Assembly (NCBI GenBank): GCA_027605045.1
Contig: JAQFWX010000005.1
Coordinates: 1,612,001 to 1,676,000, forward strand
Direction: 5' to 3'
Length of the DNA: 64,000 bases
Source of the DNA: Phallus indusiatus
Lineage: Eukaryota > Basidiomycota > Agaricomycetes > Phallales > Phallaceae
The notes below the pieces were generated by a model, which did not search any database, was not told the origin of the DNA, and saw only the letters and a list, made by a program, of their open reading frames with translations. Made by a program: the position numbers and the translations under genes. Below are positions 26,601 through 59,219 of this stretch, in pieces. Each line of letters begins with the position of its first letter. The first letter of the stretch is position 1.

Positions 26601-26626
26601 ACTTTGACGAGTCTACGAAGACTTAA

Positions 26627-27022: not shown

Positions 27023-27069
27023 CTTAATGTCTGAGTAGTAGTAGTAGTGACTCAGAGATCTCTAGATAG

Positions 27070-28582: not shown

Positions 28583-28624
28583 AGTACGACGTCAAGAACG
28601 TAACGTCGAACTATAAGTCTAAAC

Positions 28625-30080: not shown

Positions 30081-30706
30081 TGTTACGTGCCGGGGTCGGG
30101 ATGACTAAGCGAGGCTCGAGACAGGATCGGATGTGGGTCGGATGTTGGTCGGCTTCAACTTACTCTTGAGTTGCGCCCTCACGGTGCGTCACCAACAATT
30201 TCGGGTCGGGGCAGGACTACGAGGCTTTCCTAGGTTAGTACTAGGTCGGACCACGTACAGGGGTCTAGGGTGAGTTCTCCGAGGCTTTAACAACATCGGA
30301 GGGTCTGGGTAGAGACTGAGTCGGGGGACGTCGGAGTTTTGGAGTTAGGACTAGGGTCGGAGAAGTTGGTCAGAGGTAGTTGTTGAAGAAGATAGACACA
30401 ACGTCGCCGACGATGTTCGAGGACGTCGTCAACGACGACAAAGGATCTAAGATGAGATTGGATCAAGATATGAAACATGTGAGAGAATGGGCGGAATAAG
30501 ATCTATATCAGAACTGGAGAAGTAGTTACAGGAAGCTCGATCTTTAAATAGCTATGAAACTAAATAGAGACCTGAAACAGGTTACAACAAGATAACAAGG
30601 ATGGAAAAGGAAATGGTTCGGAACGGGGAAACAAAAGAATATAAGCGAGGTACAGAAAAGGAATGAGCGGAGCTCCGCTTAAGCGAGGTGTTACGCGGGC
30701 GTGACA
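30081..30706 (-). mobile_element. LTR-C, inverse copy
   Basis: TGTTACGTGCCGGGG to GGGCGTGACA, the reverse complement of LTR-C. No matching 5-bp flanks: the right side abuts a truncated CACTA-2, so one edge has been lost. With 29097-29723 it forms a 0.6-kb inverted repeat separated by about 360 bp. Confidence 0.75.
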
Positions 30707-31082
30707 CCTTAAGATTTAATTATACAGAAACTCAATATTTTCCACTCCCTCAAAATTATGATAAAATTCTGTATTGACAAGTAATCATATCAACTTAAAT
30801 ATATAATTTTCCACCATGGTTAATAATAATATATGTTTTAGTTTTTATACTGTTTGACTAAATAGAGAAAGTTATTCATAGTGTGATATAAGTAAAAATT
30901 ATTACATAATTAAATTGAGATAAATATAGTGGTATACTGACAATTTTACAAGCCAGAATCCCTTAACTTGAGTATTAGTTATAATATAATTGTGCAATTT
31001 GGTAAATCATCAATAGTCTATGCCTCGAACTATAATTTTCTTAAGATCCTTTTTTTGGTTAAACCCTACAATGTCTCCAATG
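30707..31082. mobile_element. CACTA-2 fragment (right end only)
   Basis: Homologous to the right 375 bp of CACTA-2, ending ACAATGTCTCCAATG with one change in the terminal CAGTG. The left end is missing at the junction with LTR-C. Confidence 0.75.
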
Positions 31083-31095
31083 CTAATTTAGAGCC

Positions 31096-32933
31096 TTGAA
31101 GACCATTATAGAACAAGGCATTCCCCCAGCACCTCCTGGATTCGCCTTATCGGCTCAGATCAGTGTCGAGCCTCCTGTACTAGAGGCAACCAACCCCAAG
31201 GCAGCCACTCTGCCTCAGACACCTTCCCGAGGACCTCTTGCGCCATTGGCTGAGACTCCTGTTGTGAATAGGATTCCCGAAGCTAAGAGGACCGGTAAGT
31301 ACCCAATTTGTGCTTAAAACATACTCTAATGCTTCTATGAACTTCCTTAGTTAATTTCAAAATCACATCCGGATCATCCAGTGATTCTGAAGTTGTTTCA
31401 GTGCGCGTGCCAACTTATTTTAAAGAAATTACACAAACAAATGAAATTGGCACCCGTGAAGCTCTCAAGCTATTGGTCGAGGTGCACGAAACACTAAAAG
31501 GTTCAGAGTGTATCCACTCTCAAGTTCTTTAATGTCTAACTTGTATTAGAGTGGAAGGGCGTGATCTATTTAATTGAAAATGACAATCGCTTCTGGCTTG
31601 GTATTGGCTAGAAAATTATTGGTGACAAATACTACAAGCCATTGGATATACCGGCAACTGCATGGTTGACTCTTCGAATAATGGACAATGAGCTCTGGAT
31701 TCATTTGGAATGGGAAATTGAGGAAAGACAGGTATTAATTTTATTTCAAAAATGTGTAGATGGTAACTGGTTAATTATGATTTAATGAACAGGAATGTTT
31801 ACCTCCCAGGGAAGCAGTGCCAATCACTATCTCAGACGATGACACATCTGATCCCGGTGCTGTAATCATGAATCCCGGTTCATCTGCTGGACAAACATCG
31901 GAAATCCTTAATGAAGACATTTCTCAGTATATTGCTGATCGTTTCGAGATACCAGCTGTTCAAACACTTGCGGCACGGGATGTTGTTGCCAAATATGCAT
32001 GGGACCGCTGGAAAATACTCAACAATGCAAGGCATCAGATGGAGAAATTAGGGTGGCTGAAACCAGCCACCAAAAATTTGTATGTCATGGGATGCGGTGA
32101 GTACATTTTTAATTAATTAATTTTTACTGAATATTAATTGTTTAGACACTCCATGGCATGGCAGTATACTCGGCCCGAAACATTTGGGGGCGCTGATTGG
32201 AATTAGTAGTACAACATTCAGTACACACCAGACTTTATGGACCAATGTGCAACAAATTCCCAGACTATGGGAAAATAGGCAGGTTGTGGGAAACCTTATA
32301 CCAAAGTTGTCAGGGTACGCTACCGCCGTCTCTCATTTTCCTATTTATTATCATCGGCATCACTTCATTTCTATTCCATTTATCATTTCCGTATTTTACT
32401 TCCATCTTCCGTTTCCTTGCTCTGTCTCTATTTCACATTCTCTACTCGCGCGCGTCGCACGCTCGCACCCAGCGTGATGCCCATGACATCACATCGCTTA
32501 GGCTCGGTTCGGGCGCCTAGTACTTAGCTGTGTCAGGGCCGCATGCCGCATTGTCATTTTTATGTATATAGTAGCTGTACCTAGAGTGAGGGTCCCTAAG
32601 CTTGTTCTCTTAGGATCCCCTCCCTCTAGGTGAGTAGTTAGTACTTTTCCCAATATACTCTCTTAGGATCCCCTCCCTCTAGCTTGAGCTGAGTAGCCCT
32701 AACAAAAGTATGGTAATATGCTGGTTGGTTCTTTTTCTAAAGAGGTTAATCAGATGATTGGGGTATTGAAAAGGGGTGGTGATGCTATACCGGTGATGAA
32801 TTTGAGTCATCTAAAGCACAAGTCCAGTGAGAAAGGGAAAGGAAAGGAAAAAGGGAAAGGGAAAGAGAGAGAGCATAGCAGGAAAAGGAAGGAACCCGAA
32901 CCCAAATTAACTTCTGATGGATTAGACGATTGA
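31096..32933 (+). pseudogene. Unidentified gene disrupted by a solo LTR
   Basis: Not recognised. Exon-like segments: 31096 to a GTAAGT at about 31292 (Pro-rich, starts MKTIIEQGIPPAPPGFAL); about 31351-31500; 31551-31731, with an in-frame TAG at about 31610; 31793-32098; then from about 32145. At 32308-32704 a solo LTR-A has inserted with target duplication AAAGT. If the LTR and one copy of the duplication are set aside, the frame runs on without interruption into 32933, whose C-terminus is Lys/Glu-rich (KGKGKEKGKGKERE) and ends DGLDD. The region has acidic Ser-rich (TISDDDTSDPG) and helical segments but no domain I can name. It may be a host gene or a passenger gene of a larger transposon. 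Adjacent KDZ-like sequence at 33085 makes a transposon passenger plausible. Confidence 0.5.
32308..32704 (+). mobile_element. Solo LTR-A (397 bp, TSD AAAGT)
   Basis: TGTCAGGGTACGCTACCGCC to GTAGCCCTAACA with AAAGT on both sides (32303-32307, 32705-32709). Contains two copies of a CTTAGGATCCCCTCCCTCTAG-type motif. It interrupts the reading frame of the unidentified gene at 31096-32933. Confidence 0.9.
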
Positions 32934-33084
32934 ATAGTTAGTTTTTATTAGAAGTTTTGGCAATTTGTATGCCCAATTTATTCACAACTTGAATTATGCC
33001 AATTTTCTCATCATACACCTATTTTTAGATTTATTGAATATGACTGATTTGCAATAAGAAATCGATCAGCATTTCATCTTTCTC

Positions 33085-34494
33085 ATGTATCCGACACTCA
33101 ATGACTTCTGTTGGGTTGTGAGTGCTTATATGCTGCTTGATCTATCAATTCAGTGTGTGCTGTATGCACTTGGAACAATATTGATGGCACAGGTTTTGCT
33201 GCGATTCAAACAAAATCAGTTATCCCAGCCGTATCAACACAGAGAAACAGGCTGGGACCGGGCAATTCATACGTTGGTCGACATTGCTTTTGAACCTCCC
33301 AACCAACCACTTCCTCGCATAAATGGTGAGGATTTAGATGAAGAAAATGCTTGGGATGGAGAAAAACCAGACGATGAGGACTTTATCAAACGTCTGAAGC
33401 ATGGAATCACAAATTTCATCGAAAATTTTGGATGGCTGCCTTCTGAAATTATTTCCCGCCTGTCTACTTCCCTACCAGTGATGCTGCATACTCCACATTT
33501 AGATTGCGTTTCTTCAACTTGCAACAAGAAAGCTTTATCAAGAGACCAAGACTTAGCTGTTGTTTCTGTTCTTGGGTCAGACTTGTGATGGACAAAAGGA
33601 ATTTATGTCACAGCTCAGTGTCATAAATGCAGTGCGCGATACTATGTAGATCATTATACATACCGGGATCCCGAAGATCGTGACAAATGGCTGCAACGTT
33701 TGGAGTACAATACACAGTACCTCTGTGTATCTCAGAAAGAGATGTTATTTGTTCATATAAAGGTATTCTGGTGTCACGACCCTCGTGCCACCCGATCCTA
33801 ATCCGGACCTCTCCGAGGTCCGGCGCCCAAACCCCGTCCATATTTCGTATATCCGCCATGTCCGAGCGTCAGTACTTGCCCAACAGTGCGTAGTCCGTTA
33901 TTCTGTCCACGTCCGGTAAGTCCGAGGTCCGGACTTCGTCCGGACTAGGACATTTCCTTATGGGGACAATCTGTCCGGAGCATTAGAAAGCAAGTGCCAG
34001 ATATGTTTCTGGTGCTGTGCAACTAGTCTCCTTTTAGTTATATCTCCTTTAGTTCTAGTAGTCTAGCTTTTTGTATTTAAAGCCCCAGACTTCGTCTGGG
34101 GCTCCCAGTCTGAATATCAAGTCGTATTCAAGTCTATTTTAAGTCTAGCCCAGTTAAACTCTTTATAATCAAATCTTCTCTTATCTATCTCGTCTAAAGT
34201 CCGCTCCCAGTACTTGTCCGGACCTGCCGGACTACGTCCGGGCTGTCTTGGACTTCTAGTCCGAAATTAAGGGATATCCAGGGTCGATTGAGTCGGCGCA
34301 GCACATAAGCTGAAGCCAAGTCCCTTCTGTCCCGTAGTCCGGACTCCCCGGACTTCCGCCCAGACGCCCGGAACACGGCGCGTGACATCTGGTTCCGGAA
34401 ATATTTATTTATTTATTTATATTTATGTTAGGTTGCAAAACTTCAAGAAGCTGCAATTTTCCGGTTTAAAGCCTCCTGGAGCGGTGTAGCCGAT
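33085..34494 (+). pseudogene. KDZ-transposase-like cysteine-cluster protein (CxC5/6-type), broken
   Basis: 33085-33588 reads as an N-terminal hydrophobic/helical part (MYPTLNDFCWVV), then WDRAIHTLVDIAF and the pattern HLDCVSSTCNKKAL. After an in-frame TGA at 33586-33588 the same frame continues with AQCHKCSARYYVDHY and YLCVSQKEMLFVH. Paired CxnC motifs followed by a Y-rich HxxY segment resemble the cysteine-cluster domains that accompany fungal KDZ (Kyakuja-Dileera-Zisupton) transposases. A solo LTR-D (33772-34387) then splits it; beyond an intron-like stretch the frame resumes as VAKLQEAAIFRFKASWSGV up to the Gypsy element at 34495. Assignment rests on pattern resemblance only. The nonsense codon and two insertions make it non-functional. 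Confidence 0.45.
33772..34387 (+). mobile_element. Solo LTR-D (616 bp, TSD TCTGG)
   Basis: TGTCACGACCCTCGTGCC to ACGGCGCGTGACA, flanked by TCTGG at 33767-33771 and 34388-34392. It is rich in GTCCGGAC-type words and carries a perfect hairpin at 34081-34103 (AGCCCCAGAC/GTCTGGGGCT) and another near 33811 (CCGGACCT/AGGTCCGG). It shares this palindrome-rich style with the Gypsy element. Confidence 0.88.
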
Positions 34495-34814
34495 TGTAAC
34501 GTTTCGTTACTTTTTATAGTGTACCGCGTACGGTACACAAGTTTTATCACGCTGTAGTTTCACACCACGAATAACAGACCAAGGGTGCTGTATTTTTTAT
34601 GGTGTAAAACAAAATGCGCGTGCTGAATCAGCACGCGCGTAGCTACTACTAATGTATAGTTATTACATAATGGCTCGCCGCGACGCGGCGAGCCAGAGGC
34701 GTTAAGCGCCTCTGTTACTAGAGTAAGTAATAGTAACTACTGCAGAGGGCGAAGCCCTCTGCATATGCCTAAGTGGCATATACTCGGTCCACTGCATGCG
34801 GTGGATCCGTTACA
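34495..34814 (-). repeat. 3' LTR of the Gypsy element (320 bp)
   Basis: Starts TGTAACGTTTCG and ends CCGTTACA in plus-strand reading. It consists largely of consecutive perfect hairpins: 34519-34538, 34616-34638, 34672-34694, 34742-34762, followed by CATATGCC/GGCATATA and CCACTGCATGCGGTGG-type pairs. Confidence 0.9.
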
Positions 34815-34824
34815 TCCTCCCCTT
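34815..34824 (-). other. Polypurine tract of the Gypsy element
   Basis: Minus strand AAGGGGAGGA directly abuts the 3' LTR, as expected for the plus-strand primer of reverse transcription. Confidence 0.7.
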
Positions 34825-34875
34825 GTGACTTGGACTCCAAGTCATGGGATTGCGAAGAGAGGTGTCTGACTGTAA

Positions 34876-36633
34876 TCAGTCAGAGGGATTGCTGTAGTCA
34901 ATCTCCATGCTCTCCGAGGCACTCGGATGCGGTGCATCAAGGTCCTCAGGGGGCCTCAACAATTCCTCGTCCGTCATCTGAATTGGGACGGACGGGGAGT
35001 AGACCTTGTTAGGCGGGCCTGCCACGATACTGGCAGGTGATGCCGACGCATGAACGGCGGGGGCGGACGACTGAGTCGTACGCGCCTTTTTTGTTGGACG
35101 ATCCAGTCCACGGCGCACGCGATAGTCATGCGTGATGCGGTTGACATCTTCTCCATTGGCATAACGTTGGAGAAGGGGCGCGATCACTTCAGTGACGCGT
35201 CTTGTTGTCGCTCCATTGGCATGCATGGAGCGAATCACCTCCTCTATGGTAATGGAGGAGGGGGATTTACACTCGAAGGCACGAGTGTAGCCTTCCATAA
35301 GAGTGGAAGGCAGGTGGGTGGAGGAATTACCCCTACCACCGAGGATTTCTCCCCACACAGTAAGTGCGGGGTCGAGGAGGCATTCAGCCGCCTTCTCGAG
35401 AAACTTGGCACGTACTTCACGAGTACGTGTGACTCTCTTGAGCCAAGCAAACACCTCAATGTCCTGAGGGTTTAAAGATCCATCCGACATTAGTCGGATG
35501 TAGGGAGGGACCTGGTTAGGGTCCGCGTTCCAAGTATTGATTAGATACTTGATCTCGGGGTGAATTAATTCTCCCGAGATGAACACCACCGGTGGACGGT
35601 TGGCGGCAGCCTCCATAGCTTCAAGCTTGGCTGTTTTCCTCGCTAGGCGGCGCTCCTTCATGGATCTGCGCCAATGAGTCCATGCGTATGAAATACGCAT
35701 GTGAACCCCTCTGTCATCGGGGTATGTGAACACTGGGGGGTCGGTCCAAACCCGGGTTCCAATCTCGACGAACAATGGTTCGTCGAGGCTGCAGGTGTTA
35801 TACCATGCAGTAGGATTGGGGGTGCCAGGCACCAGAGAATGATCCCCACTAACAGTGGGGTCGAAGCCCTTGACGAAGAAGGGCCATGGGTCCCTGTTGG
35901 AGTCCCATCCTGGCTTGGTCCGTGGATACGGACCAGAGGGTTTCCTTGGAGAAACCGGGGCAGCATCGTGAGAGCCCGATGCCTTGGTTGCATTAGCGTA
36001 GGTACGCTGAGGCTTGCGTTTGGTGGACGACGCGATGGAGGCATCGTCATCATAGTCGTTATCATCGACTATGTCTTCCATGTCGTCGTCAGACGACATG
36101 TCGTTGAAGATATCAGGCAAAGGGGCTGCCTGGGATGGTTCAGGCGCTTTATCGGCCTGGTCTCTCGACCGCTTTTTGGAGGTCAATGGGGTGTTCGACG
36201 GGCCTGCCGTCGACGCTGAACGTTCAAGTTCAGCAATGCGAGCTTTCAGCTCGCAGATACGACGATTCGCATCGTCGAGGTGGTCTGTCAAGGACTTGAC
36301 GTCCTTTTCAGCTTCTTCTAGACGTTCGTCTAGATGATAGTACTCCCTCCTTATGAAGGGAAAGGCCTTGTAGACGGCCTGCTTGACCATATCATGGTCA
36401 AGGATGATTGCCCCGCTGCCAGCGGGGCCTGCCAGGTGATTGGCAAAGTCGTTGCACGCAGTGCAACTATCATTGTTATGATAGACGGATATGCATCCGT
36501 CCATCGCGTCTAAGGTCCATTCGGACCTTTGCAGGGCCAGTTGAGCCTCTGCTTTTTTGAACCTACTAACAGGTTGCGGCATAGGCGACCGCGAGCGTGA
36601 TCGTTCGCGTTGCTTTCCCTTGCTGTCAGGCAT
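34876..36633 (-). CDS. Additional ORF of the Gypsy element (585 residues, function unknown)
   Basis: Lies between pol and the 3' LTR, the position of env or accessory ORFs in other LTR elements, and is separated from pol by 134 bp. No signal peptide or membrane segment is visible, so it is not env-like. The N-terminus is Arg/Ser-rich (KGKQRERSRSRSP), followed by a CTACNDFANHL segment, a coiled coil at about residues 98-140 (ERLEEAEKDVKSLTDHL), an acidic stretch (SSDDDMEDIVDDND), a basic Lys/Arg-rich hinge, then a folded-looking part with YAWTHWRRSMKERRLARK, and an acidic tail. It may bind nucleic acid or chromatin, but this is inference. The ORF is uninterrupted, with at least ten perfect hairpins of stem 8 or more in its DNA. 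Confidence 0.8.
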   Translation of the reverse strand: MPDSKGKQRERSRSRSPMPQPVSRFKKAEAQLALQRSEWTLDAMDGCISVYHNNDSCTACNDFANHLAGPAGSGAIILDHDMVKQAVYKAFPFIRREYYHLDERLEEAEKDVKSLTDHLDDANRRICELKARIAELERSASTAGPSNTPLTSKKRSRDQADKAPEPSQAAPLPDIFNDMSSDDDMEDIVDDNDYDDDASIASSTKRKPQRTYANATKASGSHDAAPVSPRKPSGPYPRTKPGWDSNRDPWPFFVKGFDPTVSGDHSLVPGTPNPTAWYNTCSLDEPLFVEIGTRVWTDPPVFTYPDDRGVHMRISYAWTHWRRSMKERRLARKTAKLEAMEAAANRPPVVFISGELIHPEIKYLINTWNADPNQVPPYIRLMSDGSLNPQDIEVFAWLKRVTRTREVRAKFLEKAAECLLDPALTVWGEILGGRGNSSTHLPSTLMEGYTRAFECKSPSSITIEEVIRSMHANGATTRRVTEVIAPLLQRYANGEDVNRITHDYRVRRGLDRPTKKARTTQSSAPAVHASASPASIVAGPPNKVYSPSVPIQMTDEELLRPPEDLDAPHPSASESMEIDYSNPSD

Positions 36634-36767
36634 GGGGGGTGTTGAGGGAGAAAAGGCCGTGAACGGACTTTTGGGTTATATACTTGGGCGGCCTCATGGA
36701 GCGCCCAAGTGAAAATTACCTCACCGCGTAGCAGTGAAGTGCCAGTGGATCCCTGTGGGTGGGATCT

Positions 36768-39700
36768 TCAAGCAGATCCCCGAGTGGGATCTGGGCGCTT
36801 GTTGCTGGTCCGCGACTCTCCGTGATTGGATAGTCGTGGCAGCTGCCGAGGCTCGTTTACGCCTCGTAATTGCAAGTACTCGTCTAGAGCTTGCAAGTCC
36901 TTACAGTTACTGTAAGGTTCCCAAGTGGTATCCCCAAGGGTCCACTGGACTAGGAACTCGAGATCTTTCTCGCGAGTTCCACTCCAGCGATGAGCTAGAA
37001 GTTCCTCGACGTGCCATTCAGCGTCGTCTGGCTGTCCAAAATCATACGCCGTGAGTGTATCGCGGCGTGGAAATCTCTCATCGTCATTGGCGATGTGAGG
37101 TTTAATCAAATCCACGTGAAATACGGGATTTATGCGACGTTGCTTGAGCTCTTCAGAGAGCTCAAGTTTTACTGTAATGTTGTCCTTGACGGACAACACT
37201 TTGTATGGTCCCACATAACGCGGGATCAACTTCTTAACTCTCCCCTTGGGGAGGTTGAGATTCCTCGTTGACAGATAGACGAGGTCACCCTCTTTGTACT
37301 CCGGTGCATCGCGCCGTGAGTTGTTCGCATAGTGAGCCTGTTTAACGCGATTGGCTATGATAGCGTCATGCGCTATCATGAGATTCCACTTTGCCTGTTG
37401 AGCAAAGTGTTGAACACCTTTGAATTTGGTGTTCGTCTCAATTTTCCTTCCCAATCTGGGAAGATAGCCGTAATTGAGTTCAAACGGCGCGAAACCAGTG
37501 GTTTCGCTGGTGCTGCTATTAATAGCAAACTCCACCATTGGGATCCTTTCGGCCCAATCTTTTTGATCGTTCTGTATCACGGAACGAAGTATTTGGCCAA
37601 TCGAGTGATTGGCTCGCTCGGTAGATCCATCCGTTTGCGGATGGAACGCCGTGGACATGAGCAATCGTGTCCCCATTAGGCGTTGCAGTTCCTGCCAGAA
37701 CTTGGCAGTGAATCGTGCATCCCTGTCACTCACGATTGAGTCAGGGACACCGTGGAGTCTTACGACTTCACTGAGGTATAACCAGGCTGTGCCCTTGGCA
37801 GTCAGCTTGGTGGTGGTTGGCATCAGACGAACCATAGAGGTCAGTCTGTCAATCACGACGAATAGGAAGTCGTGGCCGTTTGAAACAGGTAATGGACCGA
37901 CGAAGTCCATTCCAATCGATTCCCAAGGTCTATTGGGAATCGGGAGTTGTTTTAACAGACCACTGGGGTGATTATTTTCCCCTTTATTGGTCTGGCACGT
38001 TCCGCAGGATCTGCAGAACGTATCGATGTCTTCAATCATCGATTTCCACCAGTACGCTTGTCTAACGTACTGAGACGTTTTGTAACGTCCAAAGTGCCCA
38101 ACAATTTGGTGGGCCTCACTGATTATAATCTCAGTGATCCTCCTCCCCTTGTAAAATGTGTTATGGGGGACGCATAATACATCGCGGAGGAACTGATTCT
38201 TGGTAAAGATCAGTTGGTTTTTAATTCCAAATGCCTTGTGAGCGTTTGGGTTGGCAAGGACCAGCTTAAATACTGGGTCCTTGTGATAACCTTGCTGTAT
38301 TAGCGAGGTAAATTCAGCAAAGCCCTCAATTTTGGCTTTGAGAAGCTTGCTGTCTTGCTCTGCACTTAGGGCAAGTATGTCCTCATCGGATTGCGCTTCT
38401 GTAATATCAGAAGGCATAGTATTTGAGGGACCTTCTATTCGAGGTTCCTCTCGTACTCGTGAACGTGTAATAACGTTCACTCTCACTTCATCCCTTCTTT
38501 CGATGGGAAGATGATCCCCTTCGGGATCAAGTCTAACGTCAGCATTGACGTATACCTCCGGAGGATGAACCTCATCCGGAGTGTCTTCTTCGTAGTAACG
38601 AGAGAGGCCATCGGCGACATTGTTAGTGACGCCCTTGACATGAATCGTCTCGTAATCAAAACGAGACAGGTATTCATACCACCGTGCTTGGCGCGGTGAC
38701 ATGCGAGGCTGGGTCTTGAAGTGGACCATGGCCTCATTGTCCGTTACTAGGGTGAATCTTCGCCCTAGTAGTTTGTCTTCCCACTTGAGGAAGGCTTCAA
38801 GTACCGCGATGAGCTCATGCTCATGGGTGCTGTAGTTGTACTGCGCAGGGGTGAATTTCTTCGAGAGAAACCCTGCTGGCCTACATGTCTGCCATGTAGG
38901 CCCTTGCCCATAATAGGCACCGACGCCACATTTAGAGCTGTCGGTTACGACCCAAATTGGATCTGGGTCGTCCACGTTAATAGGCTTCAAGATAGGAGCC
39001 TTTCGCGTGAGTGCTTTGATTGAATCAAAGCACTTGTTCAACAACGGCGTCCATACGAACGGTCTGTTGTTGTACGTACACCCTGATAGTGGTGTAGTGT
39101 ATGCGGCTACCCCTGGTAGGTATGCCGTGACGTATTGCACGAGGCCCAGAAATTTCTGGACATCGTTATACGTGCGTGGAGTTCTCCACTCACGTATTTT
39201 GTCCATCTTCTTGTGATCGGGATGGATGCCATCATCGTCGATGATGTGGCCTAAGCACTCCAGTCGCTTAGAGTACAAATCAACTTTACGACTACTTAGG
39301 TAAAGTTGTGCTTCTCGCAGACGCGAGAAGGCATTCTCTAGATGCTGCTGATGCAGATCTATTGTGTTTGAATAGACGAACACGTCGTCTATGTATGCAT
39401 CCGTCGAACGACCGATGCAGTCCCTAAATATGTGGGTCATCAGACGTTGAAACGTCGATGGGGCATTGCAGTCTCCTTGCTGCATGACATGGCTCTTGAA
39501 AGTGCCATAGATGGTGGCAAAGGTCGTCTTGTGGACGTCCTCTGGGACTATGCGTACTTGCTCGTACGCCTCAGTCAGATCAATTTTTGATCTGTATTTG
39601 TGTCTCGCCACGTTCTGGCGGATGGTTTCCTGGTCAGGGAAGGGCGTTACGTCCTTCTCTGTGTTTTCGTTCTGCAGACGCAGATCGAACACGGTCTGTA

Positions 39701-42437
39701 GTGCTAAGGCTACGGCTCGTTTCTGCAGGCAAAGCATAGGGATTGCCTGTGTAGCTACAGTTGGTTCCCACCAACCTGCAGCTACGTATCGCTGAATCTT
39801 TTCAGAGAGTAGCGCTTTGAGCGCATCCGGACACCTGGGAAGGTGGTACCGGATCTTCTTATTGGGCTCAATAAGAGGAATCTGGTGATTCACTTCCCGA
39901 AATGGGGGAAGTCGGGAAGGGACAGGACCAAACAGGTCACTGTACTTGTTCTTCCAGTACTCGATGAGTGCTGGGATGTTCTCTTCCGTCATCGCGGGGA
40001 CGGAGGAGCTGGGATGTTGGGTGCTGGCTAGCACCATCGCTCCTGTTTCAGGAGCGTGTCCAACCACATGGTGATTGGTGTCGATCACCTCGCCGTCGCG
40101 GGTGATTGTACCTCTGCTGAAATCCAGGCAGATGTTGTAGCGTCTCAGGAATGGGACGCCAATGATCACATCATAGTGATCGATGTTGACGATGTCGGAG
40201 TACTCTTGGACATCGATACCTCCGAATTGGATTCGGGTGTACGTTCCATACTGGATGGACGACTTGCTGCCCTTAACGGCCAGCTGTAGCACGACAGGTT
40301 TGTCGAGCTTGAAGGTTCTTGCTCCGGTGGCAAGAGAGAAATGAGGGGACATGATCATCCCCTGGCATCCACTGTCGACTAGGCAGTGGGCCAATTGGCC
40401 ATTGACTGGCCAGAAACCCTCAATGGGTTTCGATGCGTTTCTGTCTCGTGTTGGGGCACGAGAGCTCACTCTAGCCGTATGGTCATAGAGTGGTTCCTTG
40501 CTCGTAGCGAGCGAGGACTCATTGTCATCCAATGGCGATGACTTGTGGACTGCGAAATGCAGTCTGCGCTCCTCATACTCGTCACCAATTGTGAGGAGCA
40601 TGTATACACTGGGACCATTGTCATCATCGTCCCATTGGTATTGAATACCCTCGTCGTCCTCGACGGGGTCATTGGTGGGCTCATCTTGGGCCACCTCTTC
40701 CTCCACAACTTGTTCAGCTGTGGGGTCTTCCACGTTCTCCTGAGGGGCATCGTTCAATGTCTCGCCAGGGGTCTCTTCAATCTCTTCGATACGACCCACA
40801 TTGGCTCGTACCTGTCTCAGTCTGGGGCACGCATTTCTGTAGTGTCCCACCTGCCCACAGTTGAAACACGTGGGAGGGGTAGTGCTAGTACGATTGTTCG
40901 TACTAGTTGGGGCAGTCCTAGTGGTCTGCGAGCTATGGTTCCTCGAGTTTGACGAGCTCGAGGGGCGATTCCCCAATGGGGAATTGCCATTAGTTCGCGT
41001 CTCATGGGGACGCGCAGAGGGACCGTGGTTCCTCTGGTTTAAGCGCATATTGTTTGAATGCGCTTGTCTGGCCAAGTTGGTGTGGCTGCTGCTGCTGCCA
41101 CTACCACTACTGCCACTACTACCCGTTGGACGGGTAGTACTTCCTTGGGAGGCCGTTATCGATCTCCGCTTCTTGAACGCCTCCTCTACTTGGATGGCGA
41201 GTGCGAGCAGTTCCTTAGCAGACATCTGCTCAGGACTACCGCCTCTGAACGCTACTTCAGCGGCGAGGCTGTGGTTCAGCCCATCAAGGAACCTCCTCCT
41301 GAATGTATAATCATCAGGAGGGTGCGCTAGTCTGTTGGCTAGCGTGAGTAATGCACTCATGTATTCGTGTACAGAGTGCGATCCCTGTCGTTCGCGTTCA
41401 AACTGGATCGCCACCTCACTTCTCGAGTGGGGTGGGAGGAATCGTTCGTGTAGTCTCCGTAGAGCAGGGACTAGGGTCCACTCATGCATGGGACGAGTAC
41501 CTCGTTCCACATTCTGGGTGAACCACTCTTGTACCAACCCTTCTAGGCGCATGCCTAGAAAGGAGAGTTGCTCTGCTTGACTGACTTCTCCAAGCAGGTG
41601 GTTTACGCGTAGCCAGCGTAACAGACCCGACACAAAGTTGTCGAAGTCTTCGGCTCTGGATGAGCCGCTATATGTGGGCGGGAGCCCTATCTTCGCTCCT
41701 GCTTTCGCAAGAGGCGAGTTGCCTGGCATCATATCCCTGTTTGCAATCAGGGCTTCTTGAACCATGGCTATGACGCCCTCAAGTACTGGGGCGTCGTCGT
41801 TGAAAGGGTCAAACCTTTCAACACGTTCCTCATCGAACGGTGTGGCGCGGAGATCCTCGCCATACTGTGGTCGACGAGCGTATCCATCATATGGATCGAT
41901 ACGTGGTACTTCTGCTGGGTTAGCAGATGCTTGCCTCTGCCCATTGGGCTCGGCACTTTGCCTTGGCAGTTGTCTGCCAGGCGGTGGTGCTCTGTCGTCT
42001 GGACGACTAGAGCTTGTGGCTGGATCTGGCGATGGGACCCTATCGCCAGTGATGGCATTATAGCCACCTTCAAACACACGAGCATGGCAGACCGCGTTCA
42101 TACGCGCGTCCCTCGCGATGCGGATTCTATCTTGAATGATCCGCAGTTGCTGCTCGTTTGGGGTGTCAGTCTCGAGGGAGCCTGCTACAGCTTCCTCGAG
42201 TGCGTTAGTGGCCGCCTCCACAGCCCGTGCATGTGTACAGATTGCTCTGTCGGAGAGTAGCCCTGCTATCCTCTGGTATTCGAGGGCAGCTTGGGCGACC
42301 ACTTCAGCATCCTCTCGTGGGGGTGCTCCATTTCGCGACTGGTTCACCAGTCGCGTGGCTATCTCGGTATCGATATAGTCACCAACCGTGTCAGACTCGT
42401 GAGGCGGTCGTCTTGTGAAACGGTACATCCGTCTCAC
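36768..42437 (-). CDS. Gag-pol polyprotein, Ty3/Gypsy with chromodomain (1889 residues)
   Basis: Single uninterrupted ORF. Gag-like region about residues 250-430 (AEDFDNFVSGLLRWL, QEWF, HEYMSALLTLANRL); zinc knuckle CFNCGQVGHYRNACP at 524-538; protease DSG at 688-690; reverse transcriptase about 860-1070 with YIDD at 1015-1018; RNase H about 1155-1290 (WVVTDSSKCGVGAYYG, THEHELIAVLEA, TLVTDNEAM); integrase HHCC zinc finger 1442-1482 and catalytic D1511, D1571, E1607 with D,D(35)E spacing; C-terminal chromodomain about 1807-1858 (WHVEELLAHRW, EFLVQW, TTWEPYSNC). This places it among chromoviruses, whose chromodomain steers integration to particular chromatin. All catalytic residues are present, so the protein could be functional although the leader is interrupted. 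Gag and pol are fused in one frame. Confidence 0.95.
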   Translation of the reverse strand: MRRMYRFTRRPPHESDTVGDYIDTEIATRLVNQSRNGAPPREDAEVVAQAALEYQRIAGLLSDRAICTHARAVEAATNALEEAVAGSLETDTPNEQQLRIIQDRIRIARDARMNAVCHARVFEGGYNAITGDRVPSPDPATSSSRPDDRAPPPGRQLPRQSAEPNGQRQASANPAEVPRIDPYDGYARRPQYGEDLRATPFDEERVERFDPFNDDAPVLEGVIAMVQEALIANRDMMPGNSPLAKAGAKIGLPPTYSGSSRAEDFDNFVSGLLRWLRVNHLLGEVSQAEQLSFLGMRLEGLVQEWFTQNVERGTRPMHEWTLVPALRRLHERFLPPHSRSEVAIQFERERQGSHSVHEYMSALLTLANRLAHPPDDYTFRRRFLDGLNHSLAAEVAFRGGSPEQMSAKELLALAIQVEEAFKKRRSITASQGSTTRPTGSSGSSGSGSSSSHTNLARQAHSNNMRLNQRNHGPSARPHETRTNGNSPLGNRPSSSSNSRNHSSQTTRTAPTSTNNRTSTTPPTCFNCGQVGHYRNACPRLRQVRANVGRIEEIEETPGETLNDAPQENVEDPTAEQVVEEEVAQDEPTNDPVEDDEGIQYQWDDDDNGPSVYMLLTIGDEYEERRLHFAVHKSSPLDDNESSLATSKEPLYDHTARVSSRAPTRDRNASKPIEGFWPVNGQLAHCLVDSGCQGMIMSPHFSLATGARTFKLDKPVVLQLAVKGSKSSIQYGTYTRIQFGGIDVQEYSDIVNIDHYDVIIGVPFLRRYNICLDFSRGTITRDGEVIDTNHHVVGHAPETGAMVLASTQHPSSSVPAMTEENIPALIEYWKNKYSDLFGPVPSRLPPFREVNHQIPLIEPNKKIRYHLPRCPDALKALLSEKIQRYVAAGWWEPTVATQAIPMLCLQKRAVALALQTVFDLRLQNENTEKDVTPFPDQETIRQNVARHKYRSKIDLTEAYEQVRIVPEDVHKTTFATIYGTFKSHVMQQGDCNAPSTFQRLMTHIFRDCIGRSTDAYIDDVFVYSNTIDLHQQHLENAFSRLREAQLYLSSRKVDLYSKRLECLGHIIDDDGIHPDHKKMDKIREWRTPRTYNDVQKFLGLVQYVTAYLPGVAAYTTPLSGCTYNNRPFVWTPLLNKCFDSIKALTRKAPILKPINVDDPDPIWVVTDSSKCGVGAYYGQGPTWQTCRPAGFLSKKFTPAQYNYSTHEHELIAVLEAFLKWEDKLLGRRFTLVTDNEAMVHFKTQPRMSPRQARWYEYLSRFDYETIHVKGVTNNVADGLSRYYEEDTPDEVHPPEVYVNADVRLDPEGDHLPIERRDEVRVNVITRSRVREEPRIEGPSNTMPSDITEAQSDEDILALSAEQDSKLLKAKIEGFAEFTSLIQQGYHKDPVFKLVLANPNAHKAFGIKNQLIFTKNQFLRDVLCVPHNTFYKGRRITEIIISEAHQIVGHFGRYKTSQYVRQAYWWKSMIEDIDTFCRSCGTCQTNKGENNHPSGLLKQLPIPNRPWESIGMDFVGPLPVSNGHDFLFVVIDRLTSMVRLMPTTTKLTAKGTAWLYLSEVVRLHGVPDSIVSDRDARFTAKFWQELQRLMGTRLLMSTAFHPQTDGSTERANHSIGQILRSVIQNDQKDWAERIPMVEFAINSSTSETTGFAPFELNYGYLPRLGRKIETNTKFKGVQHFAQQAKWNLMIAHDAIIANRVKQAHYANNSRRDAPEYKEGDLVYLSTRNLNLPKGRVKKLIPRYVGPYKVLSVKDNITVKLELSEELKQRRINPVFHVDLIKPHIANDDERFPRRDTLTAYDFGQPDDAEWHVEELLAHRWSGTREKDLEFLVQWTLGDTTWEPYSNCKDLQALDEYLQLRGVNEPRQLPRLSNHGESRTSNKRPDPTRGSA

Positions 42438-43055
42438 TGTTTCTCTGCCAGCCTCTATCTCGGGGCCGGGGTTCCTAGGAGCTGTATATGCTGTAGCTCC
42501 TTGGGTAGGAGGTCTAACAGGACGCGTACTCGGTCCTGGGGTAGCGTTCTGGGAATGTTGCCTGGTGCCTGTTGGTGCAGGCTCAGGGGATTGGGAATTG
42601 CCAGCTGTCGCTGGTGACGGACTGGCGTATGTCGGTCCCGTCGGTGTAACAAACCTAGCTTGTGGGGCTGAGTTTGTGAATTGATATGCAAGGCGACTCG
42701 TCGGCCCTGCTGGTCTAGGACGAGTAGATCCCGTACCTGGTGCAGGCGGATCTACCGCTCTGCTTTTTCCTTTGTCAGAGCGTGTAACGGTTGGGAAAGG
42801 GGTTAATAAGAGTCTATAGTCACCCAGACTCTAGGGTTTAATTCCCCATTACTGGGGAATTGTAGTGTAGCTTTGTGCGGCGTCACAGCGTGACATTAAG
42901 CGCCCGTCACACTTGTAGAGCGGTGTGACATAGTAGTTAGTTAACTTTTTACTACCCACTACACTGCATTGTATTCCCTATTAGCCTAGATTGAGCAATA
43001 GACAGGAATTCTGTGCATTTGTGGGATTTTATTTATAGCAGGTATTATTAGCCTG

Positions 43056-43403
43056 CTATAAAACTGTTACAGAGCGTGCTCGTGCAGGCTCTGCTTCAGG
43101 AGACAAGTCTGTCGTCCTGACCTGGTCCCTGTCAGTGCCCATGGTAACAGGCTCTGGCTCGGGGTTTTCAACTCCTGCGTTGACGTTCTCGATTAATCGA
43201 GCTAGTCTCTGCAGTTCTGACGGGGACATATTCCCGTTCCTCACGCCATCGAGCAACGATGTGTGAACAGCGTTCATGGCCTCATCCCTTCGGATGGACC
43301 TATCGCTCCTAACGCTAAGTCTGGAGCGACCAGATGCTACGGACTTTACGTCCTCATCTTCTTCATCAGCAAGTTGGGGCTGATGTTCCATCGTCTGCGA
43401 CAC
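43056..43403 (-). CDS. Short leader ORF of the Gypsy element
   Basis: 115 codons upstream of gag-pol, acidic and Ser/Arg-rich (SVASGRSRLSVRSDRSIRR). A second segment beyond the two nested insertions (44765 down to about 44653, starting MAPTTRSQSAPDRG) may be the original start of the same small protein, now separated by LTR-E and CACTA-2. The frames do not join cleanly by eye. Function unknown; it may be coding or merely structured leader RNA. Confidence 0.35.
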   Translation of the reverse strand: MSQTMEHQPQLADEEDEDVKSVASGRSRLSVRSDRSIRRDEAMNAVHTSLLDGVRNGNMSPSELQRLARLIENVNAGVENPEPEPVTMGTDRDQVRTTDLSPEAEPARARSVTVL

Positions 43404-43419
43404 AGGACGAGTGGGATTT

Positions 43420-43771
43420 TGTTACGGTACGCTAGCGCCTTGCCCTATTATTCGATTTCTTCGATTTCTTTCGATTTCATTTCGCACTTCGATTTCCATC
43501 ATTTCCCGTATTTTGTCGTTTCCACTATTTTCATCGTTTTCTCGATCTCTCGATCTTTTCGATTTATTTCGATTTCTGTTTGTATCTCCTTGGATCCCAT
43601 GGGGATCAGTCGGGCGCCTCATATCCTGTACTTATATGCGACTTCCCTAGAGGGGGATACCTAAGCTTGTTCTCTTAGGTTTTCCCTCCTCTAGGTGAGT
43701 AGTTAGTCGTTGTCCCCCAATAGATCTTAGGTTTTCCCTCCTCTAGGTGTGTGCCCTGAGTTGCCCTAACA
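43420..43771 (+). mobile_element. Solo LTR-E (352 bp, TSD GATTT)
   Basis: TGTTACGGTACGCTAGCGCC to GTTGCCCTAACA, flanked by GATTT at 43415-43419 and 43772-43776. Related to LTR-A by its termini and the duplicated TTAGG...CCTCCTCTAGG motif. It interrupts the Gypsy leader. A run of CGATTTC words fills its middle. Confidence 0.88.
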
Positions 43772-43813
43772 GATTTTGGGTTGATGCATCCACTCTCTCC
43801 CATGTGGATGACT

Positions 43814-44649
43814 CACTGGAGACATTGTAGGGTTTAGCCAAAAAAAGGATCTTAAGAAAATTATAGTTCAAGGTATAGACTATTGATGATTTACCAAATT
43901 GCATAATTATATTATAACTAATACTCAGATTAAAGAATTCTGGCTTGGAAAATTGTCAGTATACTGCTATAATTATCTTGGTTGAATTATGTAATGATTC
44001 TTTGTCATACAAGCCCATGATCAATGTTATCCATTCAGTAAAATAATAAACAGAATGAAACTTACATTATCATCATCCATATTGAAGAATGTTCTAAAAA
44101 TATTGTTTATATTTATTATGAGAATATATTTCTATTATAATTTGGATGCATGGGAAAAGCTTAATTTCAAGCATGAGAATACTCTTTGTAATATTAGAGT
44201 TTTCCTGGGAAAACCTTAATAATACATGGATTCCTGGAAAATCTTGAGAAAACTCTAATGTCACATATTGTGACCTTAAGTTTTAATTACACAGAAGCTC
44301 AATATTTCCCACTCCCTTAAAATTATGATAAAATACTTTATTGACAAGTAATCATATCAACTTGAATATATAATTTTCCGCTATGGTTAATAATAATATA
44401 TGTTTTAGTTTGTATACTGTTTGACTGGATAGAGAAAGTTATTCACAGTGTTATATAAGTAAAAATAATTATAGAATTTAACTAAGATAATAATAGCAGC
44501 ATACTGACAATTTTGGAAGCCAGAATCTTTTAATCTGAGTATTAGTTATAATATAATTATGCAATTTGGTAAATCATCAATAGTCTATACCTCGAACTAT
44601 AATTTTCTTAGGATCCTTTTTTTGGCCAAACCCTACAATGCCTCCAGTG
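43814..44649. mobile_element. CACTA-2 element, copy b (836 bp, TSD ACT)
   Basis: CACTGGAGACATTGTAGGG at the left, its inverted complement at the right (one change, GCCTCCAGTG), ACT on both sides. It is inserted in the Gypsy leader 42 bp from LTR-E. Confidence 0.9.
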
Positions 44650-44864
44650 ACTCTCCTTCGAGGGTTCCTTCCCTAGATGGGTCGGGATTTTCGGTTTGCA
44701 CTGGCCCAGGTGGGTCAGGCTGATTGGAATCAGGTGTACCACGATCTGGTGCACTCTGACTCCTGGTAGTAGGAGCCATTGAATCCTCCTGCAATAGGAA
44801 GGGTTAATTTCGCTTGCTTAATACAGCGGCGGGTTGTTTTTAACGCCTTTGGTGTTAAAAAAGA

Positions 44865-45183
44865 TGTAACGTTTCGCTACTTTTTATAGTGTACCGCTTG
44901 CGGTACACAGTTTATATCACGCTATAGTTTCACACCACAAGTAACAGACCAAGGTGCTGTATTTTTTGTGGAGTAAAACAAGTTGTGCGTGCTGAATCAG
45001 CACGCGCGTAGCTACTACTAATGTATAGTTATTACATAATGGCTCACCGCGTCGCGGCGAGCCAGAGGTGTTAAGCGCCTCTGTTATTAGAGTAAGTAAT
45101 AGTAACTACTGCAGAGGGCGAAGCCCTCTGCATATGCCTAAGCGGCATATACTCAGTCCACCGCATGCGGTGGATCCGTTACA
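44865..45183 (-). repeat. 5' LTR of the Gypsy element (319 bp)
   Basis: Same layout as 34495-34814. At 44889-44908 the hairpin reads GTGTACCGC-TT-GCGGTACAC, where the 3' LTR has GTGTACCG-CGTA-CGGTACAC: the loop has changed and the stem is kept. Confidence 0.9.
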
Positions 45184-45414
45184 AAAATAGAGCATTGTGA
45201 GTGTATTCATTGTGGATCAGTGGTTTATTTCTCAGTGACGTTGCTCATACATGTCTTGTGTTCTGGGTTTGATTCTTGTTGATGGTGTTTTTTTTTTCAG
45301 TGTCGCACACCGAGTACTATCAGTGTGCACTGTTTTTTTCATTGTTTTGTGTTGACTTCTTCATTAGTTTACATCGATTTATTTACAAGGTTATATTGGT
45401 TTATTCATTGTGTT
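45184..45414 (+). other. Sequence between Gypsy and LTR-B, possible continuation of KDZ-like gene
   Basis: Starts with a frame reading IEHCECIHCGSVVYFSV, another CxxC-type pair, then turns into low-complexity T-rich sequence. It may be the other side of the gene split by the Gypsy insertion at 34494, but no target duplication confirms that the flanks belong together. Confidence 0.3.
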
Positions 45415-45422
45415 ACTCTTGT

Positions 45423-45818
45423 TGTTAGGGCTACTCAGCTCAGGCTAGAGGGAGGGGATCCTAAGAGATATATATTGGGAAAATACTAACTACTCACCTA
45501 GAGGGAGGGGATCCTAAGAGAACAAGCTTAGGGACCCTCACTCTAGGTACAGCTACTATATACATAAAACGACGACGCGGCGTGCGGCCCTGACACAGCT
45601 AAGTGCTAGGCGCCCAAACCGAGCCTAAGCGACGTGATGTCACGGGCATCACGCCGGGTACGAGCGCGCGACGCGCGCGAGTAGAGAAAGTGAAATAGAA
45701 ACAGAACAAGGAAACGGAAAACGAAAGTAAAATACGGAAATGATAGATAGAATAGAAACAGAGTGATGCCGATGATAACAATTAGAAAAATGAGAGACGG
45801 CGGTAGTGTACCCTGACA
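45423..45818 (-). mobile_element. Solo LTR-A, inverse (396 bp, TSD CTTGT)
   Basis: TGTTAGGGCTACTCAGCTCA to GTACCCTGACA with CTTGT at 45418-45422 and 45819-45823. The target duplication overlaps the first three bases of LTR-B, so it inserted across the LTR-B boundary after LTR-B was in place. Confidence 0.88.
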
Positions 45819-46133
45819 CTTGTCAGGGTACGTCCCAGGCTCACGGTCATTCTAGTATATTAGCGTAGTATAGTATAACCTACTTAGATGCCTACGTGCT
45901 CTATGTCGGTCATACGGTACCCGGTATACCGGTCCGTACTTGTCCTCGCGTATTCTCCCGAACTCTCCCCGTTTCTCTGTTCGCTTCATTCTGTCATATC
46001 TCCCTCTTTCTCTATGTCATCCGTATGTCCTCGACTACCGCTCTTCCTATTGGTAGATAATGCACCTGATAGCTATTGGTTAGAGATAGCGTAATCATGT
46101 ATATATACAACTGTGCGCGCATGTGTAGTTCCT

Positions 46134-46969
46134 CACTGGAGACATTGTAGGGTTTAGCCAAAAAAAGGATCCTAACAAAATTATGGTTTGAGGCATAGGC
46201 TATTGACAATTTACCAAATTGCAAAATCATATTATAACTAATACTCAGGTCAAGGGATTCTGGCTTGCAAAATTGTCAGTATACTGCTATAATTATCTTA
46301 ACCAAATTATGTAATAATTCTTTATCATATAAGCCTATGATTAATGTTATCCATCTGGTAAAATAATGAATAAAATGAAACTTACATTATCATCATTCAT
46401 ATTGAAGAATGTTCTAAAAATCTTTTTTATATTTATTGTGAAAATATATTTCTATTATAATTTAGATGCATGGATAAACCTTAATTTTAAGCATGAGATT
46501 ACATTGTATAATATCAGAGTTTTCCTGGGAAAACCTTAATAATACAGGGATTCCTGGAAAATCTTGAGAAAACTCTAATGTCACATATTGTGACCTCAAG
46601 TTTTAATTACACAGAAACTCAATATTTCTCACTCCCTCAAAATTATGATGAAAAATTGTACTGATAAGTAATTATATTAACTTCATTATATAATTTTCTC
46701 CTATGGTTAATAATAATATATGTTTTACTTTGTATACTGTTTGATTGAAAAGAAAAAGTTATTGATAGTGTTATATAAGTAAAAATTCTTACATAATTTA
46801 ACTAAGATAAAAATAGCAACATACTGACAATTTTTCAAGTCAGAATCCCTTGATCTGAGTATTAGTTATAATATGATATTACAAGTTAGTGAATTGTCAT
46901 ATGCCTATACCTCAAACTATAATTTTTTTAGGATCCTTTTTTTGGTCAAACCCTACAATGTCTCCAGTG
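46134..46969. mobile_element. CACTA-2 element, copy c (836 bp, TSD CCT)
   Basis: Typical termini, CCT at 46131-46133 and 46970-46972, inserted in LTR-B where the copy at 28625 reads straight through (GTAGTTCCTTGCGC). Confidence 0.9.
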
Positions 46970-46995
46970 CCTTGTGCTATTATAGACTGGGTTAC

Positions 46996-47390
46996 TGTCA
47001 GGGTACGCTACCGCCGTCTCTCATTTTCCTATTTATTATCATCGGCATCATTTTGTTTCTATTTTATTTATCATTTCCGTATTTTACTTTTACTTTCCGT
47101 TTCCTTGTTCTGTCTCTATTCCACTTTCTCTACTCGCGCGCGTCGTGCGCTCGTACCCGGCGTGATGCCCGTGACATCACATCGCTTAGGTTCGGCTTGG
47201 GTGTCTGGCACTTAGCTGTGCCAGGGCCGCACGCCGCATCGTCGTTTTATGTATATAGTAGCTGTACCTAGAGTGAGGGTCCCTAAGCTTGTTCTCTTAG
47301 GATCCCCTCCCTCTAGGTGAGTAGTTAGTTTCCCTTCCAATATATTGTCTTAGGATCCCCTCCCTCTAGTTGAGCTGAGTAGCCCTAACA
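46996..47390 (+). mobile_element. Solo LTR-A (395 bp, TSD GTTAC)
   Basis: TGTCAGGGTACGCTACCGCC to GTAGCCCTAACA with GTTAC on both sides, inserted in LTR-B. Confidence 0.9.
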
Positions 47391-47403
47391 GTTACTGGGT
47401 TAT

Positions 47404-47799
47404 TGTTAGGGCTACTCAGCTCAGGCTAGAGGGAGGGGATCCTAAGTAATATATTGGAAGATAACTATACTACTCACCTAGAGGGAGGGGATCCTAAGAG
47501 AACAAGCTTAGGGACCCTCACTCTAGGTACAGCTACTATATACATAAAACGACGACGTGGCGTGCGGCCCTGACACAGCTAAGTGCCAGGCGCCCAAGCC
47601 GAGCCTAAGTGGCGTGATGTCACGGGCATCACGCCAGGTAGGAGCGCGCAACGCGCGCGAGTAGAGAAAGTGAAATATGGACGGAGAGAATAAACGGGAG
47701 GTAGAAATAACGCACGGGAAATATAAATAAGATAGAAATGGATATATACCGATGATAATAATGAGGAAAAATGAGGGTGCGCGATAGCGTACCCTGACA
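47404..47799 (-). mobile_element. Solo LTR-A, inverse (396 bp, TSD GTTAT)
   Basis: TGTTAGGGCTACTCAGCTCA to GTACCCTGACA with GTTAT on both sides (47399-47403, 47800-47804), inserted in LTR-B 13 bp from the previous copy. The two neighbours form a 0.39-kb inverted repeat. Confidence 0.9.
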
Positions 47800-47859
47800 G
47801 TTATAGTAGCAGTCCAATCCTTAAGTCTTATCGCTGAACGGTCGTGCCCTAACAACTCT

Positions 47860-48313
47860 GAGTGAGCGTGTTCTGGTGTTTTTGTTTGAACAACTTAGCA
47901 GGTTTCCACATGCCCCTCAAGGAGTTATATTGATTTGTTTAGCATGCGTTGTTGAGGACAACATGGCAAAACCTTGTGTGTCATTGTGGCGTAGCTTCAT
48001 CTTCACTAGAAATTTTTGATGTTCAGCGTCAACCAATGAACAAGCCAATGATGTTTACAGTGCATATAGGTGTGCAGACTGATGAACAATTATGTTTCTC
48101 ATTGTGTGGTAGTTTCCCATTGGGAACCTTTGATGTTTGCCATGTAGAATTATAAACACTGATGAGGACCTCTGACAATATCAACACATATTGATGAACG
48201 AGGTGATGAATGAGCGTGTTCTACATTGAGTACATTATCATTTCTCTCATGGGGTGATAATGGGTTTCGCTGAGTAATGACGGTGTACTCTGATGGGTTC
48301 AGTGTGGACTATT
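47860..48313. other. Spacer between LTR-B and CACTA-2, unassigned
   Basis: Contains recurrent phrases such as GAGTGAGCGTGTTCT and GAATGAGCGTGTTCT and a plus-strand ORF 47949-48155 with cysteine-poor sequence of no known family. Probably debris of the same old element or gene as 45184-45414. Confidence 0.35.
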
Positions 48314-49149
48314 CACTGGAGACATTGTAGGGTTTGACCAAAAAAAGGATCCTAAGAAAATTATAGTTCGAGGTATAGGCATATGACAATTCACTAACTT
48401 GTAATATCATATTATAACTAATACTCAGATTAAGGGATTCTGACTTGAATAATCGTCAGTATGTCACTATTTTTATCTTAGTGATATTATATAAGAATTT
48501 TTACTTATATAATACTATCAATCACTTTTTCTATTCAATCAAACAATATACAAAGTAAAACATATATTATTATTAACCATAGCAGAAAATTATATAATGA
48601 AATTGATATAATTACTTATCAATACAATTTTTTATCATAATTATGAGGGAATGAGAAACACTGAGTTTCTGTGTCATTAAAACTTGAAGTCACAATATGT
48701 GACATCAGAGTTTTCTTAAGATTTTCTAGGAATCCCTGTATTATTAAGGTTTTCCTAGGAAAACTCTGATATTACACAGTGTAATCTCATGCTTAAAATT
48801 AATGTTTTTCCATGCATCTAAATTATAATAGAAATATATTTTCACAATAAATATAAAAAACATTTTTAGAACATTCTTCAATATAGATGATGATAATGTA
48901 AGTTTGATTCTATTCATTATTTTACTAAATGGATAATATTAAATATACGCTTATATGATGAATGATTATTACATAATTTAACCTAGATAATTATAACAGT
49001 ATACTGACAATTTTTCAAGTCAGAATTCCTTGACCTGAGTATTAGTTATAATATGATTTTATAATTTGGTAAATTGTCAATTGCCTATGCCTCGAACCAT
49101 AATTTTCTTAGGATCCTTTTTTTGGCTAAACCCTACAATGTCTCCAGTG
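48314..49149. mobile_element. CACTA-2 element, copy d (836 bp, TSD ATT)
   Basis: Typical termini, ATT at 48311-48313 and 49150-49152. By eye the arms are inverted repeats over at least the outer 150 bp. No transposase ORF. Confidence 0.9.
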
Positions 49150-51727: not shown

Positions 51728-51733
51728 AATACC

Positions 51734-59211: not shown

Positions 59212-59219
59212 GCTGAGGG

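Follow-up and report, generated by a model that had tools for sequence, protein, structure and literature searches.

A Ty3/Gypsy retrotransposon family of Phallus indusiatus densely paved with short perfect hairpins

The window analyzed here, 64,000 nucleotides of the Phallus indusiatus genome (contig JAQFWX010000005.1, positions 1,612,001–1,676,000; assembly GCA_027605045.1, 67.2 Mb in 206 contigs), contains a Ty3/Gypsy long terminal repeat (LTR) retrotransposon at 34495–45183 on the minus strand. It was recognized by its paired LTRs and the order of its pol domains, and its LTRs and two large open reading frames (ORFs) are filled with short perfect hairpins. The 5′ LTR (44865–45183, 319 bp) is 93% identical to the 3′ LTR (34495–34814, 320 bp), and both carry TG...CA ends. 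Between them, likewise on the minus strand, lie a 121-aa ORF in the leader (43056–43421), a gag-pol ORF of 2020 aa (36768–42830) and, after gag-pol, an extra ORF of 599 aa (34876–36675). Pfam matches in gag-pol follow the order gag, CCHC, protease, reverse transcriptase (RT), RNase H and integrase, then an SH3 match, with a C-terminal Chromo match below threshold (21.7 bits against a curated cut-off of 25.1). A purine-rich tract adjoining the 3′ LTR (34815–34824, minus strand) is, by its position, a candidate polypurine tract. At the expected position of the primer-binding site, three bases past the end of the 5′ LTR, stands a minus-strand hairpin with an 8-bp stem and a 9-nt loop (44837–44861), and no tRNA complement was recognized by eye after the 5′ LTR. 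The leader of this copy also holds a hairpin-poor block of about 1 kb made up of other repeats, namely a fold-back element and fragments (43605–44652, no strand assigned).

Across the element, we counted 146, 93, 53, 21 and 11 perfect hairpins with stems of at least 6, 7, 8, 9 and 10 bp, respectively (loops of 3–10 nt), compared with 16.2, 3.8, 1.3, 0.25 and 0.1 in 20 dinucleotide shuffles of the same sequence. The equivalent counts for positions 10001–20000 of the window were 17, 4, 0, 0 and 0, against 18.9, 4.9, 0.95, 0.25 and 0.05 after shuffling. A sequence-only reading of the locus had listed 16 hairpins, all of which are present; four are longer by 1–2 bp than it gave (35208–35233, 35764–35787, 36382–36402 and 41799–41822). 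The dinucleotide shuffles it proposed as a control leave the excess standing, as do the codon-preserving shuffles described below. Its picture of hairpins following one another through the element holds with regard to density, but their spacing is random or slightly clustered and not even, so that a regular arrangement was rejected. Likewise, the pattern extends through the LTRs, gag-pol and the extra ORF, but not to the 121-aa leader ORF, which shows no excess for stems of at least 6 bp.

Perfect hairpins (stem of at least 6 bp, loop of at most 12 nt) take up 33% of the element, against 6.8% of positions 1–30000 and 4.8% of positions 49500–64000. With loops of 0–12 nt, stems of at least 8 bp reach 15.6 and 12.5 per kb in the LTRs, 8.9 in the extra ORF (16 stems) and 5.3 in gag-pol (32 stems), compared with 1.5 in the leader, which holds the other repeats, and 0.5–0.7 in the remaining window. 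The 3′ LTR is a near-unbroken chain of hairpins, with seven stems of at least 7 bp, the longest of 12 bp, and a folding z of −10.7 against mononucleotide shuffles; the 5′ LTR has five stems of at least 7 bp. Host genes, the Helitron and the CACTA elements of the window had been described as free of the pattern. Outside the element, counts match those of shuffles at 10001–20000, but in the flanks stems of at least 6 bp are raised 3.6-fold (32001–34494) and 2.5-fold (45184–55000), to which another LTR with hairpins, at 33772–34387, contributes. Stems of this length are also raised 1.5–1.6-fold in 1–10000 and 20001–32000. Loop lengths in the element peak at 3–5 nt, which fits hairpins of a single strand better than duplex binding sites. 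No known structured RNA family was found within 34400–45300 at Rfam gathering scores.

We then compared each ORF with 200 synonymous-codon shuffles in which protein and codon usage were fixed. In gag-pol, 82 stems of at least 6 bp were observed against 11.7 in shuffles, and 27 of at least 8 bp against 1.1 (shuffle maximum 4). The extra ORF gave 32 against 5.1 and 13 against 0.6 (shuffle maximum 3), respectively. Because synonymous shuffling abolishes the excess, the pattern is made by synonymous codon choice, and it is in this way that protein coding and palindromy, whose coexistence had been claimed from the sequence, are combined.

Conservation of the encoded protein supports the same conclusion. 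The comparison covered 1049 of the 2020 gag-pol residues and 115 relatives, five Lolium records having been left out of 120 hits. Residue conservation, scored for stems of at least 7 bp, was 0.56–0.57 in stems, 0.53 outside and 0.47 for residues partly in hairpins. Since residues in stems show no lower conservation than the rest, and since some hairpins cover highly conserved motifs, the hairpins appear to be built mainly by codon choice. For example, an 8-bp hairpin lies on the integrase codons FHPQTDG (37626–37645), the residues of its two arms sharing 0.96 and 0.99 identity with relatives, and another on the RT codons IDDVFVY (39372–39392), with arm residues 0.67 and 0.65 identical. Further minus-strand hairpins, like these two, include one with a 12-bp stem and a 1-nt loop (39010–39034) that is identical in 27/27 covering loci before merging (see below), two 10-bp stems from the sequence-only list (37143–37166 and 38878–38902) and a 10-bp stem in the extra ORF (35764–35787). 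Insertion of small palindromic modules was considered but is not supported: in the comparable half of gag-pol, residues in stems of at least 7 bp show gap fractions of 0.2–1.0% when aligned with relatives, and the sequences of the 103 hairpins listed are different from one another, the LTR repeats excepted.

The hairpin paving is a property of the family, unlike the sampled rest of the genome. Thirty family loci, including the window copy, carry 3.1–7.6 stems of at least 8 bp per kb, compared with 0–0.6 in 30 loci that belong to other RT elements from the same genome (L031–L060, assigned as RT elements by Pfam match, with the labels Gypsy or LINE, long interspersed nuclear element, being our own reading). 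Counts over 29 loci overstate independence, as seven are pieces of elements already counted. Merging gives 23 elements, window copy included, and the main tests were repeated on these; the fixed-mismatch counts, the split-sample test, the nonsynonymous-to-synonymous ratios (pN/pS), the prediction of polymorphic wobble and transversion sites and the minority-hairpin comparison remain unmerged. In the merged set, 23/23 elements have 5.7–7.8 stems of at least 8 bp per kb of covered coding sequence (loops 0–12 nt). Two haplotypes may be present in the assembly, in which case some of the copies could be alleles, and ascertaining hairpins in a reference copy lowers the apparent divergence of that copy.

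Measured against the window copy, pN/pS is 0.12 for gag-pol, 0.16 for the extra ORF and 0.17 for the 121-aa ORF, indicating that all three are maintained proteins and that the family has been replicating. The extra ORF matches no Pfam family, and scoring of 7996 candidates yielded no relative; its single-sequence structure model is poor (mean predicted local distance difference test score of 42). The window copy itself is probably a recombinant element, because its LTRs differ by 7% and fall into different identity bands and because it has no target-site duplication (flanks CCGAT and AAAAT; this copy only). Five other element-sized LTR pairs each fall into one band at both ends and span 9.2–9.6 kb, compared with 10.7 kb here.

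Comparison of the copies also revealed hairpins whose loops are reverse-complemented in some loci (unmerged): TTC/GAA in 1/10, GA/TC in 1/15, GAT/ATC in 1/21 and T/A in 5/10. The hairpins concerned lie at 45110–45132, 42334–42355, 37447–37463 and 34671–34695, and such loops may reflect inversion of the hairpin or switching between strands. In addition, at element sense coordinates 3977–4034 (window ~41150–41207), a subfamily shows clustered changes that make new hairpins, in 7/24 and 6/24 loci.

Predicted folding is strengthened on both strands. Relative to synonymous shuffles, the folding energy of gag-pol is 1.42-fold on the sense strand (z −25.8) and 1.36-fold on the antisense strand (z −23.9), and that of the extra ORF 1.36-fold and 1.27-fold; an excess over order-shuffled sequence is present along the coding regions of the element. 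In sense gag-pol, pairs spanning at most 35 nt are enriched 1.54-fold, whereas longer ones fall to 0.45-fold and G-U pairs to 0.58-fold. Among control RT families, the folding gain was 0–1% for L049 and 4–13% for L031 and L036. L031, which has no strong hairpin excess, is nevertheless more folded than shuffles on its sense strand (z −6.5).

To look for selection on pairing, we compared substitutions among the 23 elements. A search for compensatory changes had been proposed from the sequence. Carried out among the copies, it gave 10 same-branch double changes at stem pairs, against 0–7 (mean 2.5) in 12 slid controls; both columns were variable in 22 stem pairs, against 9–16 in the slid controls. 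Stem cells stayed Watson-Crick in 95% of cases. At third positions, transversions occurred at 35/668 unpaired and 21/1392 paired sites (P 3.5e-6), and with pairing taken from the antisense strand at 22/479 and 23/1414 (P 0.0007). Three control RT families gave no consistent contrast of this kind, with few events. Overall, the evidence for selection on folding is moderate: folding energy, paired substitutions and transversions support the suggestion that selection imposes the stem-loops, but other tests of constraint are weak.

We lean, by a modest degree, towards the reading that the LTRs and two large frames of this Ty3/Gypsy family have been shaped, mostly through synonymous codons, so that either strand folds locally, as a single strand, into short Watson-Crick hairpins. 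Selection on the folded single strand would then be the cause of the paving. That chance, base composition or codon usage produces the hairpins is virtually excluded, as dinucleotide, synonymous-codon and codon-order shuffles all fail to reproduce their density. Two other accounts place the selection on one strand. Were the sense genomic RNA alone selected to fold, for packaging, dimerization, stability or control of translation, the element would resemble plus-strand RNA viruses with genome-scale ordered RNA structure (GORS). In favor of this, sense pairing slightly outperforms antisense pairing as a predictor of transversion sites with 6/6 reference copies, and of any change with 4/6. Moreover, polymorphic transitions that leave a sense wobble are less suppressed relative to the unpaired rate than those leaving an antisense wobble (0.60 and 0.41 over a pool of six references; 0.52 and 0.44 for the window copy alone). 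However, the two strands gain similarly in folding, and single mismatches in gag-pol stems that read G·T on the sense strand are no more enriched over shuffles than arbitrary ones (3.4-fold and 3.3-fold), whereas sense A·C is enriched 9.0-fold; we regard the sense-only account as unlikely. The A·C excess points instead to the minus strand, since a sense A·C is an antisense G·U, and folding could matter there for first-strand cDNA during reverse transcription or for antisense RNA. Gag-pol mismatches that are Watson-Crick in no copy likewise comprise 37 A·C and 6 G·T (P 0.0013 against the shuffle ratio). Against this account, the extra ORF has no such bias (3 A·C and 2 G·T fixed, 3 and 3 among single mismatches), the polymorphism data lean towards sense, and phage Q-beta also shows A·C above G·T (5.3-fold and 3.5-fold). 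A role confined to the minus strand therefore appears slightly less probable still, and folding on both strands would be the simplest summary of these predictions.

A further account dispenses with any benefit: the element's own RT, by snap-back or by template switching at hairpins, would make and perfect inverted repeats, with protein selection filtering the products. It would fit hairpins that are specific to the family, behave alike on either strand, contain few G-U pairs and are densest in the LTRs, the least constrained part. Strand switching could leave traces such as the loop inversions described above and the two of 16 minority hairpins in which a single arm carries two differing bases. 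On the other hand, stem residues are not less conserved in the comparable part of pol, 12/16 minority hairpins are a single stem base off the majority and 2/16 differ by several bases over both arms, and mismatches have no preferred place in the stem, for which reason a model of RT snap-back seeds drawn from the A·C mismatches was rejected. Arm-to-arm correction should also yield many double changes, yet they are few beside singles (10 and 220). Template-driven palindrome formation, the other cause proposed in the sequence-only reading, is thus less supported, and we give it a minor share of the probability, somewhat above that of a sense-only role.

Several observations weigh against selection for local folding of either strand and temper our preference for it. 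The 121-aa ORF has one stem of at least 6 bp where synonymous shuffles give 0.6. The wobble evidence conflicts, fixed mismatches favoring antisense G·U and polymorphic changes slightly favoring sense wobble. Stem pairs show 220 single changes, scarcely below the 220–268 of slid controls, and with unmerged loci and stems of at least 7 bp the same-branch doubles number 9 against 1–9 in eight slid controls, where pairs outside hairpins would predict 4. Summing over all reference copies counts columns repeatedly, and the unique-column test gives a weaker result: in its split-sample form, loops are fast, but third-position stem sites are not significantly slower than sites outside. Transitions are slower at paired sites in three families without hairpin excess too, so this slowing is generic, and in control family F2 transversions at paired sites are also halved, on few events. 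Finally, no DNA of relatives was found among the viral contigs or prokaryote genome contigs searched.

If both strands are indeed selected to fold, the benefit might be that sense and antisense strands are kept from annealing and so do not feed host RNA silencing; alternatively, compaction of the RNA might aid packaging. Strands that have collapsed locally would anneal poorly, and a host with RNA-dependent RNA polymerase (RdRP) and Piwi proteins would be expected to turn sense-antisense duplex into silencing signals. The genome holds several RdRP loci and Piwi-domain genes, which makes avoidance of silencing plausible. Several of the RdRP loci have an almost identical partner on another contig, as would be seen if both nuclei of a dikaryon were represented in the assembly. 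Local folding as a means of keeping strands apart has been ascribed to RNA phages. A tentative and rather doubtful extension is that the coding sequence has been rewritten so that the RNA and its antisense copy collapse at once, denying a silencing-competent host long duplex, a phage-like strand separation in a DNA-integrated element.

The surroundings of the element are rich in other repeats. The LTR at 33772–34387 belongs to another family (TGTCAC...GTGACA), found in at least 40 places, several of them paired about 3–4 kb apart. It has five stems of at least 7 bp against 0.3 expected and a folding z of −5.4, its hairpins being built largely on one repeated palindromic GTCCGGAC motif; 1 kb between two LTRs of this family is unremarkable, with four stems of at least 6 bp. 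Fold-back elements about 840 bp in length and carrying long terminal inverted repeats, as copies or pieces, occur at 46133–46969, 48313–49150, 43813–44650 and 27345–28583, and a repeat of about 397 bp occurs in four copies and both orientations (32308–32705, 45422–45818, 46996–47390 and 47403–47799). A 1708-aa open frame lies at 730–5856 on the minus strand.

In domain order (gag-PR-RT-RNaseH-IN), the element matches basidiomycete Ty3/Gypsy elements (Metaviridae) such as the Phanerochaete sordida polyprotein and Trametes relatives. Pol identity is 49–57% among the 120 listed hits, apart from the five Lolium records, which are distant; the named relatives are mainly basidiomycete (Phanerochaete, Trametes, Phlebia, Mycena, Lyophyllum). 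It differs from them in its extra 599-aa ORF, for which no relative was found. In the literature searched, which covered few subscription journals, we met with no LTR retrotransposon reported to be paved in this way. Ty3 genomic RNA, probed by selective 2′-hydroxyl acylation analyzed by primer extension, is also that of a structured LTR retrotransposon, with a high density of structured regions in the RT domain; stable, highly structured regions make up at most 30% of Ty1 and Ty3 RNA, and the portions of that study drawn on here do not report genome-wide perfect hairpins (PMC11381356). Quasipalindrome template-switch mutation (PMC7202029) could make inverted repeats perfect and turn loops around, of which a few instances occur here, but the minority hairpins of the element mostly differ by one stem base. 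The presence of structured and unstructured retroelement families in one cell, under the same silencing machinery, offers paired test material, with which one could ask whether secondary structure shields transposon RNA or RT drives palindrome growth.

Structured genomes are known in RNA viruses (PMC3950689), and the element shares with GORS-like genomes a folding energy above that of shuffled sequence throughout its coding regions. It differs from them in being an LTR retrotransposon with short local Watson-Crick hairpins, depleted long-range pairs and similar strands. The phages MS2 and Q-beta likewise have coding genomes folded on both strands beyond synonymous shuffles, with sense and antisense gains of 34% and 26% for MS2 (two genes) and 26% and 32% for Q-beta, compared with 42% and 36% for gag-pol. 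Both phages keep long-range pairs, whereas gag-pol gains only short-range ones. The excess of perfect 8-bp stems is about 2-fold in MS2 (1 against 0.5), 9–10-fold in Q-beta (6 against 0.6–0.7) and about 24-fold in gag-pol, which makes this element a natural protein-coding genome with perfect local hairpins denser than those of two folded RNA phages.

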